Source of the DNA: an uncultured Bacteroidales bacterium | GTDB lineage: Bacteria; Bacteroidota; Bacteroidia; Bacteroidales; UBA932 | Assembly (NCBI GenBank): GCA_944326235.1 | Contig: CALVDH010000003.1 | Coordinates: forward strand, 60,126 to 124,125 | DNA: 64,000 bases | Direction: 5' to 3' | Shown here: piece after piece, positions 2,015 through 53,543 of the stretch | Layout: each line of letters begins with the position of its first letter | How positions within the stretch are numbered: position 1 is the stretch's first letter | Program-made: the position numbers and the translations under genes | Notes under the pieces: model-generated | Database searches by the model: none | Told to the model about the DNA's origin: nothing | Seen by the model: the letters and a program-made list of their open reading frames with translations, nothing else

Positions 2015-3205
2015 ATGTATTATTTTATAGGAAGTTTATTCCCCATAAGTCTTTCAAAAGATATTTATAAACATTCAACTGGAAACATAGATAATGCAGC
2101 CAACTCATTGCAATGGAATTATATAGAAGGTTTTAAGCAGAATGATTGCGGACTTGAAATCGTAACGCTCCCAGGCGTCGGAACCTTCCCAAAAAACTAT
2201 TCAAAGGCAGCGCTTCCCAAATCTGTGTTTGCCGTAGCACCGTCAATCTCAGGCAATTCTCTATCCTTTATAACACTCCCTTTGCTCGGCCTGGTATCCC
2301 GTTATTATTCCTTAAGCAAATTCCTAAATAAGGAGAGCAGTGTGTCCGACAAGGATGTAATAATTGTTTATTCGTTAAAATCAGCTTTCTTATTAGCCTG
2401 TTGCGGACTGAAGAAAAAACTTAAAGATATTCATATTTGTGTGATAGTTCCTGATCTTCCGCAGTATATGTCAGAGTCTGGCAATAAGGTATACCGTTTT
2501 TTGAAAAGAATTGATAAAAAAATAATCGATAGGTGTTTAAAAAAAGCAGATACTTTTGTACTGCTATCTGATGCGATGCATGATGCTCTAAATGTGGGGA
2601 CACGGCCATGGGTTAGAATTGAGGGGATATCCGCAAATTATTCCGATAATATATTGTGTATGAAGCATCCTGGATTTGTGTACTGCTATACCGGAACCCT
2701 GGATAAGAGATATGGAATTTTGAATTTATTGCATTCATTCATGCAGTTGGAAGGTGATGATTTGATGCTGTGGATTTGTGGAAAAGGAAACGCAGAGGAA
2801 TCTGTGAGAGAATGCTCTGAGAAAGACAACCGTATAAAATATTTCGGAATACTGTCCCACGATGAAGTATTAAAAAAACAGAAAGAAGCAACGGTTCTTG
2901 TGAATCCCAGGACTGGTGCAGGAGAATATACGAAATACTCATTCCCTTCAAAAACTATGGAATACATGGCATCCGGTACGCCATGCATAATGTATAACCT
3001 GCCTGCATTGCCGGAGGAATATAAGCCTCATATCTTTCTTATTGGCGATAATCAAGAGACATCTCTCTTAGATAAAATGCGTGATGTTTACAGTATACCA
3101 AAGGTAGAGCTGGAGAAATTCGGGAACGAAGCCAAGAACTTTATACAGCGAGAGAAAAATCCTAGGCGACAAGTCTCTCAAATGCTAAGCATGATAAATC
3201 AATAA
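2015..3205 (+). CDS. Glycosyltransferase family 4 protein
   Basis: A 396-residue GT-B glycosyltransferase. The N-terminal region (residues 1-200) is the variable acceptor domain. The C-terminal domain holds a nucleotide-sugar site around residue 310, with FPSKTMEYMASGTPCIMY, the form of the E-x7-E region seen in polysaccharide GT4 enzymes. The start at ATG 2015 lies in a small TACATA/TATGTA inverted repeat that could affect initiation. GC content is intermediate between the AT-rich genes to the left and the GC-rich fnlA, which begins only 10 bases downstream. It probably acts in assembling the repeat unit that contains FucNAc; its specificity is unknown. Confidence 0.82.
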   Translation: MYYFIGSLFPISLSKDIYKHSTGNIDNAANSLQWNYIEGFKQNDCGLEIVTLPGVGTFPKNYSKAALPKSVFAVAPSISGNSLSFITLPLLGLVSRYYSLSKFLNKESSVSDKDVIIVYSLKSAFLLACCGLKKKLKDIHICVIVPDLPQYMSESGNKVYRFLKRIDKKIIDRCLKKADTFVLLSDAMHDALNVGTRPWVRIEGISANYSDNILCMKHPGFVYCYTGTLDKRYGILNLLHSFMQLEGDDLMLWICGKGNAEESVRECSEKDNRIKYFGILSHDEVLKKQKEATVLVNPRTGAGEYTKYSFPSKTMEYMASGTPCIMYNLPALPEEYKPHIFLIGDNQETSLLDKMRDVYSIPKVELEKFGNEAKNFIQREKNPRRQVSQMLSMINQ

Positions 3206-3215
3206 ATTATAATTT

Positions 3216-4289
3216 ATGTCAGTATTTAAAGATAAAGTGCTCCTCATTACTGGCGGCACGGGCAGCTTCGGCAACGCCGTCCTCCGCCGCTTCCTGGACA
3301 GCGACATCAGTGAGATCCGCATCTTCTCGCGCGACGAGAAGAAGCAGGACGACATGCGTCACAGGCTGCAGAACCCCAAGGTCAAGTTCTATATCGGCAA
3401 CGTGCGCAACAAGCAGTCGGTGGACATCGCCATGCGCGGCGTGGACTACGTGTTCTCTGCGGCGGCCCTCAAACAGGTTCCCTCGTGCGAGTTCTTCCCG
3501 ATGGAGGCCACCCGCACCAACGTGGAGGGCACCGAGAACGTGCTGCTCTCGGCCATAGAACATGGTGTCAAGAATGTCGTTGTTCTCTCCACGGACAAGG
3601 CCGCCTATCCCATCAACGCGATGGGCATCTCGAAGGCCCTGATGGAGAAGGTCGCGATAGCCAAGGGCCGCGAGCTGGGCGAGGGCGCCGCCACGACCAT
3701 CTGCTGCACGCGCTACGGCAACGTGATGGCCAGCCGCGGCAGCGTGATACCTCTGTGGGTGGAGCAGATGATGGAGGGCCAGCCCATCACCATCACGGAC
3801 CCGAACATGACGCGCTTCATGATGACCCTTGACGACGCGGTGGACCTGGTGGTATACGCGTTCGAGCACGGCCACAACGGCGACCTGTTCGTCCAGAAGG
3901 CCCCTGCCGCAACGCTGGCGACCCTTGCGCAGGCCCTGAAGGAGATATACGCCAAGGTGGATCCGAAGTACGGTGAGACCGAAGTCAGGGTCATCGGCAC
4001 CCGTCACGGCGAGAAGCTCTACGAGACTCTGGTGACCAGAGAGGAGATGGCCCGTGCCGTCGACATGGGCAACTACTACCGCATTCCCTGCGACACGCGC
4101 GACCTGAACTACGACAAGTACTTCAAGGAGGGCAGCGAGGACATCTCGCGCATCGAGGACTACCACAGCCACAACACGCGCAGGCTGGACGTCGAGGGCA
4201 TGAAGGAGCAGCTTATGCGCCTGCGCTTCATCCAGGAGGACCTCGGTCTTATACCCCGGGCGAAGGCCCGCGACATCCGCTCGGAGTAA
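3216..4289 (+). CDS. fnlA: UDP-GlcNAc 4,6-dehydratase/3,5-epimerase (CapE/FnlA)
   Basis: A cytoplasmic SDR enzyme that begins UDP-L-FucNAc synthesis by converting UDP-GlcNAc to 4-keto-6-deoxy intermediates. The N-terminus shows the dinucleotide-binding motif TGGTGSFGNAV at residues 13-23. The SDKAAYP-type region with its Ser/Thr-Asp-Lys catalytic environment lies near residue 128, where the usual Tyr-x3-Lys is replaced by Met-x3-Lys (MGISK); such a Met is known in CapE-like enzymes. A length of 357 residues fits CapE/FnlA/WbjB. The next two genes encode the reductase and 2-epimerase of the same pathway, which supports the call strongly. Codon use is very GC-rich, in sharp contrast to the flanking glycosyltransferase genes. 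Confidence 0.93.
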   Translation: MSVFKDKVLLITGGTGSFGNAVLRRFLDSDISEIRIFSRDEKKQDDMRHRLQNPKVKFYIGNVRNKQSVDIAMRGVDYVFSAAALKQVPSCEFFPMEATRTNVEGTENVLLSAIEHGVKNVVVLSTDKAAYPINAMGISKALMEKVAIAKGRELGEGAATTICCTRYGNVMASRGSVIPLWVEQMMEGQPITITDPNMTRFMMTLDDAVDLVVYAFEHGHNGDLFVQKAPAATLATLAQALKEIYAKVDPKYGETEVRVIGTRHGEKLYETLVTREEMARAVDMGNYYRIPCDTRDLNYDKYFKEGSEDISRIEDYHSHNTRRLDVEGMKEQLMRLRFIQEDLGLIPRAKARDIRSE

Positions 4290-48915: not shown

Positions 48916-50166
48916 ATGTCAGGCAAACTCAGGCAATATCCGGAAGTCTGCGCCAGGCTGCAGACATACGTGCGGGAGTGTGTGCTGCCGCGCTACGATG
49001 CGTACGACAAGGCGCATTCGCGCAGTCATATCCTCTCGGTCATCAGTCAGAGCATGGAACTTTACGGGAGACTTGTGGAGAAAGGAGAGCGCGGTCCTGA
49101 CGGGGCACTGCTGAATCCGGACATGATATATGCCATAGCGGCCTATCACGATATCGGTGTATGTGAGGGCCGCGAGTTCCACCATCTGGCCTCGGGGCGG
49201 ATGCTGGAGGCTGATACAGTCCTGCGTCAATGGTTCAGCCAAGAGCAGATCCGGCTCATGCGCGAGGCCGTGGAGGACCACCGCTCGTCCAACAAGTCCT
49301 GGCCGCGTTCCATCTACGGCCGGATAGTCGCCGAGGCGGACAAGCTCATAGATTTCGATACAGTGTTCTCCAGGGCAATACTCTATGCCCGGGCCAATTA
49401 TCCTGAGCTGACTGACGAGGAAATCTTTCAGAAGAGTTACGGGCATCTTTTGGAAAAATACGGGGAGGGCGGATATATGCGCCTGCAGTTCTCCGACTCT
49501 CCGAATGCGCTGCGGCTGGCTGAGCTGCGGGAGAAGCTGCGCGACCCTGAACTGATGAGGCGGGAGTTCGCTCTTTTCCAGGTGCATCCGCTGGAGCCTT
49601 TTGTCCCGGACGGTGCCCGGGTCCTGCTGCTGGGGTCTTTCCCGCCTCCGCACGCCCGCTGGTCGATGGAGTTCTTCTACCCGAATTTCCAGAACGATAT
49701 GTGGCGGATCATGGGACTGCTTTTCTACGGAGATGCCGGACACTTTGTGATGCCGGGGCAGAAACGCTTCGACTATGAGAGGGTGGTGGAGTTCTGCCGC
49801 CGCGAGGGCATTGCCCTGTACGATGCCGCCTACATGGTCAAGCGCCTGCGCGGCAATGCTTCCGACAACTTCCTGAAAATCATAGAACCCACCGACATCC
49901 CGGCTCTCCTGGCCCGGATGCCCTCATGCCGCGCCGTAGTCTCCACCGGCGGTAAGTCCGCGGAGCAGATAGCCTCCATCCTGGACGTGCCGGTGCCCTC
50001 CGTCGGCGGCTCCGTCCCCTTTACCATTTCCGCACCTTCAGCTACTTCCACATCCGGAGTATCGTCCCGCACCGTGACATTTTACCGCATGCCCTCCTCC
50101 TCGCGGGCCTATCCGCTGTCCCTGGATAGGAAAGCCGCCGCGTATGCCAGGATTTTCGGCTTATGA
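48916..50166 (+). CDS. HD phosphohydrolase fused to uracil-DNA-glycosylase-like domain
   Basis: A 416-residue fusion. Residues 1-215 form an HD-superfamily domain: HSRSHILSV supplies the first His, AAYHDIGVCEG the His-Asp pair near residue 77, VEDHRSS a third His near 113, and EADKLIDFD a late Asp. Residues 225-416 resemble UDG-superfamily enzymes: VLLLGSFPPPHARWSMEFFY and NDMWRIMGLLF near residue 240, STGGKSAEQIA near 340, and RMPSSSRAYP near 395 as the product-release loop. In relatives the UDG-like part usually stands alone. The stop codon is the first three bases of palindromic repeat A, so the C-terminus could have been changed by its insertion. Confidence 0.78.
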   Translation: MSGKLRQYPEVCARLQTYVRECVLPRYDAYDKAHSRSHILSVISQSMELYGRLVEKGERGPDGALLNPDMIYAIAAYHDIGVCEGREFHHLASGRMLEADTVLRQWFSQEQIRLMREAVEDHRSSNKSWPRSIYGRIVAEADKLIDFDTVFSRAILYARANYPELTDEEIFQKSYGHLLEKYGEGGYMRLQFSDSPNALRLAELREKLRDPELMRREFALFQVHPLEPFVPDGARVLLLGSFPPPHARWSMEFFYPNFQNDMWRIMGLLFYGDAGHFVMPGQKRFDYERVVEFCRREGIALYDAAYMVKRLRGNASDNFLKIIEPTDIPALLARMPSCRAVVSTGGKSAEQIASILDVPVPSVGGSVPFTISAPSATSTSGVSSRTVTFYRMPSSSRAYPLSLDRKAAAYARIFGL

Positions 50167-50410
50167 CACTTTTCTGTCCTGTATTGGCACGTCAGATAGC
50201 GGAGTTTGATGCCGGCGAGAATGCAACGAATTGACTTCGGTGTGCGCTGTGATTTTGGATAGCCTGAAAATCAGGGCTTTGCAAATCTGGCTGCACATTT
50301 GCCCACTTTCAGAATAGGGCAAATGTGCAGTACGTCTCGTAAGGCTTTGACTTTCAAGGCATTTTTTCTCGTACTGCACACCGAAGTCAATTCGTTGAGA
50401 ACAGCCGTCA
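50164..50410. repeat. REP-like cloverleaf palindrome, copy A
   Basis: The core is 174 bases (50224-50397) bounded by 22-base perfect inverted arms (50224-50245 and 50376-50397, left arm starting CAACGAATTGACTTCGG). Inside, a 14-base perfect hairpin (50291-50304 with 50317-50330, CTGCACATTTGCCC) and a small CCTGA/TCAGG hairpin make a cloverleaf. It matches copy B at 51492-51725. The first bases are the stop codon of the HD-UDG gene and the last three are the stop codon of the transposase gene. Confidence 0.93.
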
Positions 50411-51250
50411 GCGGGCACGGCGCAGAATTTCCGGGTCAGTTCCTGTCAGGCGGGCAATCTGCTTGAATGGAGTGCCGTAGCGTTTGCGGACGAGGTCAGC
50501 CAGGCGGTAGCGGTCCTCGATGCTGAGCTTATCCGGGGATTCGCAACGGAATACCTCCTGACAGATGCCGCCTATGGATATTATCAGTTCGTCATCAGTG
50601 TAGCGGGCTTTATGGAGTATGCCTGAGCGGATCTCTACCTCCATATTCTCTTTGCTGGAGATGAAGTACATCAGCCGGGCAGGTGAGTAGAACAGCTCTT
50701 CGACGGCCTGGACAGCTACGTAGGATTCCGGGCTTATCATACCTTCAGGGGTTATCGTATATGTGTCCAGCTCATTGGTCTGGGAATGCAGCAGACTGCG
50801 TTTCTCCCGGTAGGACAGGGTTCCCACAGTCCTCAGGTTCCGGAAGTCAGTCTGAGCCGGACTCCGGAAGTAAAGTGATGCCGAACTCCATTCGTAATGG
50901 ATGGGCAGGATTTTAAGTCCGGCCGACAGAGGGTTCCGGAGCACATAGCCTATCGCTCTCTTCAGGTACTCAGTATCCTCGATCGGTTTCATGCATACAT
51001 CCGCGCCTCTGATGCCAGCCAGTTTCCCGAGCTTTCTCTTATAGTTGATTATGAACTTTCTGCAGTTTGTTTCGGCGCCCTGCACTATGAAATGGACGTG
51101 GTTGTCCATCAGACAGAATGCCAGGACAGTCACGTTGAACCTCTGTGCGCACACCGGAATGGCGTTCATTCCTACGATATAGTCTTCCCTGCTCTTGAAA
51201 ATCACTTTCTTCACGAGCCCCTCAGTACAGATATGCCAGTAATTTTCCAT
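50408..51250 (-). CDS. REP-associated tyrosine transposase (IS200-like, HUH Y1)
   Basis: A 280-residue single-strand DNA transposase of the RAYT/Y1 type, starting at 51250 (MENYWHICTEGL, the usual start; a TTG 33 bases upstream is less likely). The HUH metal motif is HVH in LMDNHVHFIVQG near residue 60, and the catalytic Tyr is in FIINYKRKLG near 80. A C-terminal HTH-like region (about 240-280, RYRLADLVRKRYGTPFKQIARLTG) is typical of the family. RAYTs nick and rejoin single-stranded DNA at hairpin repeats. It lies between two near-identical palindromic elements, and its stop codon is the right edge of copy A. Confidence 0.9.
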   Translation of the reverse strand: MENYWHICTEGLVKKVIFKSREDYIVGMNAIPVCAQRFNVTVLAFCLMDNHVHFIVQGAETNCRKFIINYKRKLGKLAGIRGADVCMKPIEDTEYLKRAIGYVLRNPLSAGLKILPIHYEWSSASLYFRSPAQTDFRNLRTVGTLSYREKRSLLHSQTNELDTYTITPEGMISPESYVAVQAVEELFYSPARLMYFISSKENMEVEIRSGILHKARYTDDELIISIGGICQEVFRCESPDKLSIEDRYRLADLVRKRYGTPFKQIARLTGTDPEILRRAR

Positions 51251-51347
51251 ACGCGAATTTATGCAGAAATAGAATGTACGCAAGCCCTGCCCGAAAATAA
51301 ATTTACCGTAATTGCAATTTCAGACGTGTTTCCGTATCTTCGCTGTT

Positions 51348-51494
51348 ATGGACTGGGGAAACAGCAGTGAGAATGTTCTCATTTTCAGACACGAATTCTG
51401 GTGGAAAAATCATAAACCGCGCCAGAAGACTTATGTCGGTCTGGACGGCTCCGAAATGCTTGAGGGGAAAACGGTGACGGTAGTCATGCCGTGA
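51348..51494 (+). CDS. Possible 48-residue ORF ending at repeat B
   Basis: A short open frame between the transposase gene and repeat B, reading MDWGNSSENVLIFRHEFWW and then KTYVGLDGSEMLEGKTVTVV. A TTG at 51312 and a near -7 box TATCTTCG at 51335 with a 20-base spacing lie just upstream, so expression is conceivable. No family is recognised. Its stop codon is the first three bases of repeat B, so it may be the start of an interrupted gene or chance. The rest of 51251-51491 shows no other feature. Confidence 0.25.
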   Translation: MDWGNSSENVLIFRHEFWWKNHKPRQKTYVGLDGSEMLEGKTVTVVMP

Positions 51495-51725
51495 CATTCT
51501 GTCCTGTCAGGTAGCGGAGTTTGATGCCGGTGTGATTGCAACGAATTGACTTCGGTGTGCGCTGCGGTTTTGGATAGCCTGAAAATCAGGGCTTTGCTAA
51601 TCTGGCTGCACATTTGCCCACTTTCAGAATAGGGCAAATGTGCAGTGCGTTTCGCAAGGCGCTGACTGTCAGGTTACTTTATTTAGTACTGCACACCGAA
51701 GTCAATTAGTTGAGAACAGTCGTCA
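51492..51725. repeat. REP-like cloverleaf palindrome, copy B
   Basis: The core is 174 bases (51539-51712), the same length as copy A, with 22-base arms (51539-51560 and 51691-51712, one mismatch) and the same 14-base inner hairpin (51606-51619 with 51632-51645), including an identical 12-base loop. Differences from copy A are concentrated in the roughly 45 bases after the inner hairpin. It is a direct repeat of copy A across the transposase gene. Confidence 0.93.
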
Positions 51726-51833
51726 ACTCGTCGGTCGCCGAGGCTTTAAGTTGTGGCGTTCCAGGCGGGGCAGCAAAGCTAATGTCCGATGGCGTTGGTA
51801 GTGGTTTCGCTTGGTCGAGGTACTTCCTGCGGG

Positions 51834-53543
51834 TCAGTAGCGGTAGTGCTTGAGGACGCGGATTGCGGCTTCTGCCTGGTCCTGGCCGAATTCCAAGGCG
51901 CGTTCGAGGTAAATGCGGGCTGAGGTGTATTTTTTCGGGGTACCTTCGCCGTCGAAGTACATGCGGCCGAGCTTGAGCAGGGCGGGGCCGACGTTGCGGT
52001 TGGCCGCCTTGTGATAGTACTGCAGGGCTGTGGAGTTATTTTTCTGGTCATAGTAGTAGTCGCCCAGGAATAGTCCTGCCAAAGAAGAGCCCTTGTCGAG
52101 GGCGCTGCGAAGGGTCTGTACCCCCTTGCCTGCCTGGCCGCGTTCTATATCTAGGCGTCCCAGCCAGGCGAGGCAGTCCGGATTGCCTTCACCGTCGCCT
52201 TCCTCGAACAGGCTGCGGGCCTGGTCATATTCCCCCATGTCGTAGAAAACTTCTCCGAGGCAGGCATATCCCTGCGGTTCCCCGTTCTCAATGGCCTCGC
52301 GGTAGTATTCGGCGCACAGTTCCATATTCTGCTCTCCGAAGCGGCCGGCGTAGTAGAGTTGTCCTAGATTGCAGGCGCAGATCCAGCTGCCGTGCCGGAT
52401 GCCCTCGAGGTAGATCTGGCGGGCCTCATCGAAATGTCTCTGGCGCCCGGCTGAGAGACCGGCCATCTTCCAGGCCCATTTCAGCCCTTTTTCGGCTGCT
52501 TCGCGGTAATATGATTTGGCGTGCTGAAGGTTGATATCCATGCCGTTGCCGTAGTAGCACATCGTTGCGACGGCCGCGATGCAGCCGGCGTGTCCCATTC
52601 CGTGTCCTTCCCAGTAGTAGTTCCAGGCCTTGTGGTAGTCCTGGGATATCCCGGCCTTGCCGTAGAAGTATAAGTCACCGGCTTTCTCGCAGCAGTCTCC
52701 ACTGCCGCACTTTATGCCTTTTTCGAAGGTTTTGAGGGCTTTGCTTCCATTGTTCTCAAGGGCGTAGAGGACTCCCAGTTCACGGAGGCACCAGTGGTCT
52801 TCCATGTCGGCTCCGCGCTCGTACCATTTCCATCCCTCCTTCCTCTTCTCGGGCAGGCCGTAGACACCTTTGTAGTAGCCCCAGGCGAGGGTCTTGACAG
52901 CGTGGATGTTGCCCCGGCGGGCTTCGGCGGTGACACGGTCCACGTCGATGAGGTAATCATTTTTCGGGAAACCGTCGGTACCGTCATACACCAAGCTCTC
53001 TTCCTCCTTGTCATCGTCCTCCTCCTCATCATCATCGTCTTCTTCTTCTTCGTAATCTGCCCCCTCATCGAAGTCCTCCTCCTCATTATCATCATCATCC
53101 CCGAATAGCGTCCCCTCGTCGAGACTCTCCAGCAGCCCCTGAGCAAAGCCGGAGCCCATGGCAGCTCCTTTTTCCATCAGCTCCCGGCATTTGTCCATGT
53201 CCTTTTCCGGAAAGCCTATGCCGTACATGTACCCGAGCAGAGCCCAGGCTTCCGGCAGGTCGGTCTCCTCAGCAATCTGCCGCGCCATCTCATAGGCCGT
53301 GTCCATATCCTGCTCGGCCCCGTCGCCCGTCAGTATCTTCTGTGCCAGTTCGAATCCTGCCTCAGGGACTCCAGCCTCGTAGGCTTTGCCGAACCATTTA
53401 ACAGCTTCCTCTGCATCCTCGTCCTCGTCATTTTCGGGATAAGCGTATTCCATCCCGACCAGGTACTGGGCCCATGCGTCTCCCTTGTCGGCGTATTTGA
53501 GCAGCTGCTTGAAGCTGAGGCTGTCGTAATCGATGTCCTTCAT
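51834..53543 (-). CDS. Sel1-like repeat protein with acidic insert
   Basis: A 569-residue cytoplasmic protein built of Sel1/TPR-like helical repeats, seen as AVKWFGKAYEAGVPEAGFELAQK, AWNYYWEGHGMGHAGCIAAVATM, YYREAIENGEPQGYACLGEVFYDMG and YYHKAANRNVGPALLKLGRMYFDG. Between about residues 148 and 188 is a run of Asp and Glu with few other residues, coded by repetitive GAT/GAG codons. Sel1 proteins usually scaffold signalling or stress complexes; the acidic run could bind basic proteins. It has no signal peptide and no operon partner of clear function; the Nudix gene lies 37 bases upstream. Confidence 0.85.
   Translation of the reverse strand: MKDIDYDSLSFKQLLKYADKGDAWAQYLVGMEYAYPENDEDEDAEEAVKWFGKAYEAGVPEAGFELAQKILTGDGAEQDMDTAYEMARQIAEETDLPEAWALLGYMYGIGFPEKDMDKCRELMEKGAAMGSGFAQGLLESLDEGTLFGDDDDNEEEDFDEGADYEEEEDDDDEEEDDDKEEESLVYDGTDGFPKNDYLIDVDRVTAEARRGNIHAVKTLAWGYYKGVYGLPEKRKEGWKWYERGADMEDHWCLRELGVLYALENNGSKALKTFEKGIKCGSGDCCEKAGDLYFYGKAGISQDYHKAWNYYWEGHGMGHAGCIAAVATMCYYGNGMDINLQHAKSYYREAAEKGLKWAWKMAGLSAGRQRHFDEARQIYLEGIRHGSWICACNLGQLYYAGRFGEQNMELCAEYYREAIENGEPQGYACLGEVFYDMGEYDQARSLFEEGDGEGNPDCLAWLGRLDIERGQAGKGVQTLRSALDKGSSLAGLFLGDYYYDQKNNSTALQYYHKAANRNVGPALLKLGRMYFDGEGTPKKYTSARIYLERALEFGQDQAEAAIRVLKHYRY

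Follow-up and report, generated by a model that had tools for sequence, protein, structure and literature searches.

We analysed a 64,000-nucleotide (nt) stretch of DNA from an uncultured Bacteroidales bacterium (the window in what follows), in which a gene for a predicted HUH transposase of the Y1 type lies between two long palindromes. The gene resembles those for the transposases associated with repetitive extragenic palindromes (REPs), that is, the REP-associated tyrosine transposases (RAYTs) or TnpAREP proteins. Sequence comparison shows that both palindromes belong to a dispersed 174-nt repeat, and the gene likely specifies a dedicated transposase spreading this repeat in trans. By analogy with known RAYTs, this would probably be a REPtron-like system, in which the predicted transposase recognises the whole palindrome folded as a single strand.

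The 174-nt element and its copies

The palindromes form a direct repeat of 220 nt each, with 90% identity and a spacing of 1315 nt (Table 1). An earlier note on this DNA had described two direct 174-nt copies with 22-base outer arms, an identical inner hairpin and about 45 diverged bases, and our repeat and sequence analysis agrees: the ~45 nt located 3' of the inner hairpin have diverged between the window copies, the hairpin and its loop being unchanged. When the 220-nt stretches were folded as single-stranded DNA, z-scores of -8.0 (left) and -9.3 (right) were obtained, and in neither case did any of 200 dinucleotide shuffles fold as well. Small CTGANNNTCAG-like palindromes sit on both sides between the outer arms and the inner hairpin, and the 174-nt element could accordingly form either a cloverleaf or a long two-tier hairpin.

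Further copies, which the earlier note had expected in the genome or its relatives, were found in the source genome and in five other genomes of the genus. Beyond the window pair, the source genome has two further full copies, one each at C32 and C30, and an incomplete one at C2. A covariance model (R1) detected 35 full sites at 120 bits or more, which we refer to as family A, in six genomes of the same genus (four in the source genome, G000, and 6, 8, 9, 2 and 6 in G001, G002, G003, G008 and G017 respectively). The family is clearly separated by score, the next site among the matches listed having 76 bits; the top 35 sites are complete, and the counts for lower-scoring families are lower bounds. 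All 35 full copies measure 173-175 nt, far above the 20-40 bp given for REPs, which typically carry a GTAG-type tag, in the part of PMC3733652 drawn on here; the size contrast raised in the earlier note therefore stands. Among the 20 aligned copies, 68 nt separate the hairpin from either end of the element, with exceptions of at most one base. A strict hairpin pattern was present in 5 of the 19 genomes of the genus, and the same pattern read backwards gave zero matches in these 19. The midpoint was covered by an open reading frame (ORF) of at least 100 amino acids (aa) in 5 of 19 copies; most copies, not clearly all, are intergenic. One family-A copy in G008 (L053:1433-1606) lies ~105 nt from a 5S rRNA gene, with flanks common to copies in G002 and G003.

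To describe selection on structure we used two alignments. In the 20 family-A copies fitting the strict hairpin pattern (A2), 91.7% of stem cells hold standard pairs, compared with 31.0-39.5% when one side is slid, and 32 cells show both-side changes, a number reached in none of 500 shuffles (20.1 +/- 3.1). The second alignment (A3) contains 47 copies from several families, truncated and near-identical ones being excluded. The structure derived from it comprises the outer stem, the inner hairpin and the left mini-hairpin, and compensatory double changes maintain pairing in 21 of 26 pairs, a figure biased toward structure because many of the 47 copies were retrieved with a structure model. The copies are kin by descent and their letters are not independent, which applies to the pairing statistics of A2 and also to the duplication and flank test, the gene-proximity count and the similarity correlation given below. 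We conclude that the outer stem, the inner hairpin and their spacing persist while the sequence drifts; the compensatory changes in both alignments lend support to the suggestion in the earlier note that the stems are under selection.

When 13 elements were folded against mononucleotide shuffles, the whole elements gave z -1.4 to -14.8 and their halves +0.9 to -4.7, the best-folding halves being those of the left window copy (z -3.1 and -4.7). A dimer of independent hairpins is unsupported for most of these 13 elements, the left window copy being the exception. In some families (the L278, L145 and L265 elements) the outer arm has almost the sequence of the inner hairpin, and their halves might pair with themselves, for which half-folding is weakly supportive.

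Site occupancy varies among species. At one site an element is present in G000-G002 and absent from G008, G017, G011, G007, G012 and G015. At the L059 site the filled allele differs from that of G007 by ~700 nt, more than the element alone. Across 29 family-A copies T occupies each of positions -3 to -1 in 21-23 copies and A occupies +1 in 24, and no consistent target-site duplication was detected (two 4-mers with 0.6 expected, one 5-mer with 0.06, one 7-mer with 0.02 and no 8-mer). Because T precedes and A follows the element, the order is wrong for a terminator formed by the outer stem, and this candidate was rejected. A known RNA was also rejected, the three Rfam matches with E<1 in 50000-52000 all being to microRNA families and far under the gathering scores.

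The near-identity of the flanking copies, on which the earlier note had remarked, holds in the window (90%) but not as a general rule, since the right copy in the closest relative, G003, is ~70% like the left and aligns better in the inverted sense. The two window copies are also alike over at least ~33 nt to the left of the element and 13 nt to its right; since the repeat in this way reaches past the 174-nt core on either side, the right copy seems to have arisen from the left, flanks included, by a fairly recent duplication. We did note that the spacer between an HD gene and the RAYT gene seems to have been duplicated in the source lineage, the right copy in G003 being without the shared flanks. 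Between the right copy and a nudix gene lies a Sel1-repeat gene (51834-53543), of which G003 keeps only ~57 nt of the start; the HD and nudix genes are adjacent in G013, G004 and G011.

Table 1. Features of the transposase locus, in window positions
Feature	Position	Strand	Basis or remark
Left copy, 174-nt palindromic element	50224..50397		Sequence, repeat and folding analysis
Right copy, 174-nt palindromic element	51539..51712		Sequence, repeat and folding analysis
Outer arm, left copy	50224..50245, pairs with 50376..50397		22 nt, 100% complementary
Outer arm partner, left copy	50376..50397		Mate of 50224..50245
Outer arm, right copy	51539..51560, pairs with 51691..51712		22 nt, 95% complementary
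Outer arm partner, right copy	51691..51712		Mate of 51539..51560
Inner hairpin, left copy	50291..50330		14-nt arms, 12-nt loop
Inner hairpin, right copy	51606..51645		Same sequence as hairpin of left copy, loop included
Mini-palindrome, CTGANNNTCAG-type, left half of left copy	50264..50274		Helix 2 of covariation analysis
Mini-palindrome, right half of left copy	50347..50357		Weaker; helix 4, 73.8% of cells paired as local hairpin
Predicted transposase gene, RAYT/TnpAREP type	50408..51250	-	280 aa from ATG; ORF open to TTG at 51283
Left copy with flanks	50191..50410	+	90% identity to 51506..51725
Right copy with flanks	51506..51725	+	Flank homology not found beside right copy of G003

The transposase gene and its probable partner elements

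The assignment of the gene between the copies as a Y1 HUH, RAYT-like gene, already made in the earlier note, is upheld by its motifs and by a Y1_Tnp match under the cut-off. The window protein contains NHVH (the HuH motif) and YVLRNP (the Y---NP tyrosine motif), each invariant in 21 of 21 aligned relatives, and the distance from H58 to Y107 is 49 residues. In a predicted structure model, with a mean predicted local distance difference test score (pLDDT) of 76.5, the core fold resembles ISDra2, IS608 and TnpAREP 4er8; Foldseek ranked the ISDra2 and IS608 transposases best and TnpAREP 4er8 fifth (E ~1e-3, template modelling score 0.23-0.29 by query length). A sequence search of the PDB returned two matches, both irrelevant. 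For the C-terminal helix-turn-helix domain that marks subclass 2.1 (TIRYT), the candidate matches were to HTH_38 in the window protein (E 0.044) and to HTH_19 in 5 of the 21 relatives (best E 0.011), all below the cut-off.

An orthologous gene is found at the same place in G000-G003, so that HD gene, element and RAYT gene occupy one common place in four species. The next syntenic gene comes immediately after the HD gene in G013, G004 and G011, and G009 has an element ~1.2 kb past its HD gene. Among the four orthologues, two of which are partial at contig ends, the ratio of non-synonymous to synonymous substitution rates is 0.10-0.21 and there is no stop codon; on this sequence comparison the transposase gene is under purifying selection. 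The relatives of the window gene within its own genome are 25-53% identical to it, and the gene looks immobile. An insertion sequence made up of the gene and its two elements is unsupported in view of these low identities and of the syntenic place in four species.

Several element families have their own gene. Family A goes with the window gene. The source genome has at least 11 element sites among the matches listed. A paralogue at C19 is flanked by elements of a 178-nt family that also occurs as solo copies, two at C7 and one at C17. Another family, with TGCAATTTTC-type arms, is represented at C34 and C25; a relative of this family flanks a gene in G017, but the source genome yielded no gene for the family. 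In G033, where the matches listed include 28 both-strand element matches and 6 matches to genes of this lineage, all five of the further sites examined were closest to the element beside its gene L121. The similarity of RAYTs correlates with that of their adjacent elements (r 0.84, 31 loci), and after dereplication at 70% the correlation was r 0.34 (permutation p 0.0002, 18 loci). Element scores fall close to zero once RAYT identity is below ~60%, and the correlation is therefore carried by the closer pairs.

Other RAYT genes of the source genome have repeats of other kinds beside them. The gene at C9 (L020) is bracketed by palindromes of 183-187 nt (621-807 and 2080-2262) with quite different arms. 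At C10 (L019) there are 117-nt tandem repeats with small ACCTTCCGAAGGTG palindromes and, across the gene, related inverted copies (657-1007 and 3106-3258), an arrangement nearer to classical REP arrays, and three 106-nt tandem repeats (L021:838-1155) lie near another distant RAYT. Orphan elements of several families occur in G015 at L246, L249, L258, L260, L263, L265, L272, L278 and L280.

For a wider survey 80 loci were fetched, nearly all from Bacteroidales or Bacteroidia and one from Spirochaetales, which fits the earlier description of a RAYT system in a Bacteroidales; nine lacked one flank, leaving 71 usable. A match of at least 40 bits between the two flanks of the RAYT-type gene was seen in 34 of the 71 loci, compared with 81 of 4970 cross-locus pairs. 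The sense of the match is direct in 28 and inverted in 6; in two of the 34, L151 and L153, the matching stretches are 350-1100 nt away from the gene and might be repeats within coding sequence. When 16 upstream copies were folded, several showed an outer stem, A-rich internal loops and an inner hairpin of 13-18 bp within ~90-110 nt, and others gave different folds. With a broader model (R2) applied to 91 loci, 40 of 46 sites lay within 400 nt of the gene, spread over 32 loci; the 46 sites were obtained by merging both-strand and overlapping matches by hand, and two of them belong to the training set of the model.

Co-occurrence was assessed in 99 genomes of the family. Among the matches listed, 26 genomes had an R2 match at E<=1e-3, which is the search's own cut, 50 had a gene of this lineage and 22 had both, so that the gene was carried by 22 of 26 genomes with the element against 28 of the 73 others. 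At E<=1e-5, a cut set after inspection of the list, the figures were 18 of 18 against 32 of 81.

Evidence against a dedicated transposase and rival explanations

A number of results weigh against the reading that a dedicated transposase spreads the element in trans. The Pfam Y1_Tnp match of the protein scores 20.7 bits, just under the curated cut-off of 23, and the NCBIfam REP_Tyr_transpos match 30.1 bits against a cut-off of 80; the structure matches are modest, with acylphosphatases of the same general fold close behind. In the 20-copy alignment double changes affect 8 pairs, compared with 9.0 in shuffles, and the count of pair types shows no excess either. Exact insertion junctions could not be read when five joined flank pairs were compared with 19 genomes (20 regions), because the intergenic flanks are too diverged. 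With regard to co-occurrence, 59 of the 91 RAYT loci are without an R2 match within 400 nt, and 28 of the 99 genomes have a RAYT and no R2 match among the matches listed. Family A is present in G008 and G017 without any RAYT more than ~50% identical to that of the window. G015, which is 95% complete, has elements of other families at nine or more sites and RAYT relatives that are only 25-30% identical, and no R2 match was found beside these relatives. The tie between copies and RAYT genes proposed in the earlier note is in part contradicted by G008, G017 and G015, which are without a close RAYT. Gene loss, divergent families that escape the model, incomplete genomes or a looser link between gene and element could lie behind these mismatches. 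Orphans are known among REPs, the RAYT having been deleted in many E. coli strains according to the part of PMC3733652 used here. The below-cut-off profile matches, to Y1_Tnp and to REP-associated tyrosine transposases, agree in pointing to one family at the level of sequence.

The system shares with the TnpAREP/RAYT systems of E. coli, Pseudomonas and Stenotrophomonas, with their REP or REPIN repeats, an HUH/Y1 protein with Y---NP, a few diverged genes per genome, flanking palindromes with dispersed copies and one gene per element family. It differs in that the window element has 174 nt rather than 20-40 bp, that outer and inner stem make one unit and that halves of such elements fold poorly alone in most copies tested; unlike the GT[AG]G foot of REPs, GTAG or GTGG is present in the arm of only 7 of 20 copies, which include neither window copy. 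Members of the IS200/IS605 family (IS608, ISDra2) have structured single-strand ends and, as judged from the structure model, a related catalytic fold, and they insert without target-site duplication, as family A appears to do. They have Y---Q in place of Y---NP, and here the gene and the repeats do not appear to be one moving unit. The TIRYT/TIRtron systems (Di Nocera et al., 2013; probably subclass 2.1) also combine a RAYT-like gene with long flanking repeats, some self-complementary and some in dispersed families. However, the GGGGWSAS sequence found in the majority of their terminal inverted repeats is not in the window element, the left copy of which is without a GGGG or CCCC run, and here each repeat is an entire near-palindrome, the pair lying mostly in direct sense (in 28 of the 34 loci with matching flanks).

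A potential explanation that would be compatible with spreading in trans by a dedicated transposase is that the locus simply belongs to TnpAY1 subclass 2.6 (group 5 of Bertels), working by the same mechanism and not new in kind. The genes of this subclass, mostly from Bacteroidetes, are flanked by 'atypical secondary structures' with genomic copies elsewhere, according to the portion of Quentin et al. (2018; PMC6006769) drawn on here, and in these respects they are like the window locus. That portion, however, gives YIH[QN]NP as the tyrosine motif and 82 residues as the median HuH-to-Y distance and calls the structures weaker, whereas YVLRNP is found in 21 of 21 relatives, the distance is 49 residues and the window structures are strong; a 174-nt unit of fixed length is not among the features described in it. 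We consider simple membership of subclass 2.6 unlikely, if by some way the strongest of the three rival explanations.

It might alternatively be that the palindromes are structures in DNA or RNA kept by the host, for example in regulation or chromosome organisation, and that a domesticated RAYT processes them rather than spreading them. The purifying selection on the gene, its stable syntenic locus, the modest copy numbers, the strict length and the copy beside the 5S rRNA gene would all suit such a role. Against it, site occupancy differs among species and families replace each other between genomes, and neither the Rfam search with the window copies, none of which matched above the gathering score, nor the polarity of the flanks speaks for a structured RNA or an outer-stem terminator. 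We regard a host role of this kind as improbable. Still less credible to us are miniature inverted-repeat transposable elements (MITEs) moved by an unrelated DDE transposase, with a RAYT gene between two of them by chance. The bacterial MITEs of PMC3733652, in the part used here, have terminal inverted repeats and 70-300 bp, a range that includes the window element with its 22-nt terminal inverted repeats. MITEs would also account for short non-coding units and for orphan copies without a close RAYT, but there is no consistent target-site duplication in the 29 copies, many loci adjoin RAYT-type genes, and element similarity tracks RAYT similarity. A DDE transposase needs neither an inner hairpin nor a fixed element length, and the hairpin at its fixed distance would be superfluous for such an enzyme.

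Proposed mechanism and significance

For a dedicated transposase spreading the repeat in trans, we propose a sequence of events in which binding, cutting and movement are predicted because of the protein family, by analogy with its known members. A strand exposed in replication or repair would fold into the two-tier hairpin, and the transposase would bind the outer stem and the inner hairpin, set at a fixed distance from each other. The tyrosine would then cleave where the element meets the T-rich flank, and the strand, released or copied, would be joined to another exposed T-rich site. As the element is near-palindromic, either strand could serve as the substrate, and the mobile part would be the element and not the gene itself. 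E. coli TnpAREP cleaves single-stranded REP, as stated in the part of PMC8266576 drawn on here.

Whether this amounts to a separate RAYT class in Bacteroidales is a further proposal, which we put forward tentatively and lean slightly against. In such a class the repeat would be an indivisible two-tier palindrome of fixed length, the enzyme would measure how far the inner hairpin is from the outer stem and use either strand, and a genome would have several faithful gene-element pairs; the fixed length would apparently be 173-175 nt in the window family and ~90-110 nt in relatives from rumen and deer gut. The kind of system is known already, and the large size, the rigid length and the covariation appear to be new; no published description of a 174-nt unit was found in the open-licence PMC literature.

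The findings bear on how a RAYT and its repeat come to recognise one another, and on why such genes are retained although they do not move. Since structure and length stay constant while the sequence is replaced from family to family, the recognition code should be readable from natural covariation, and it could be tested with one protein together with matched or swapped elements. If an isolate can be obtained, G033 might be a natural host for such a system.

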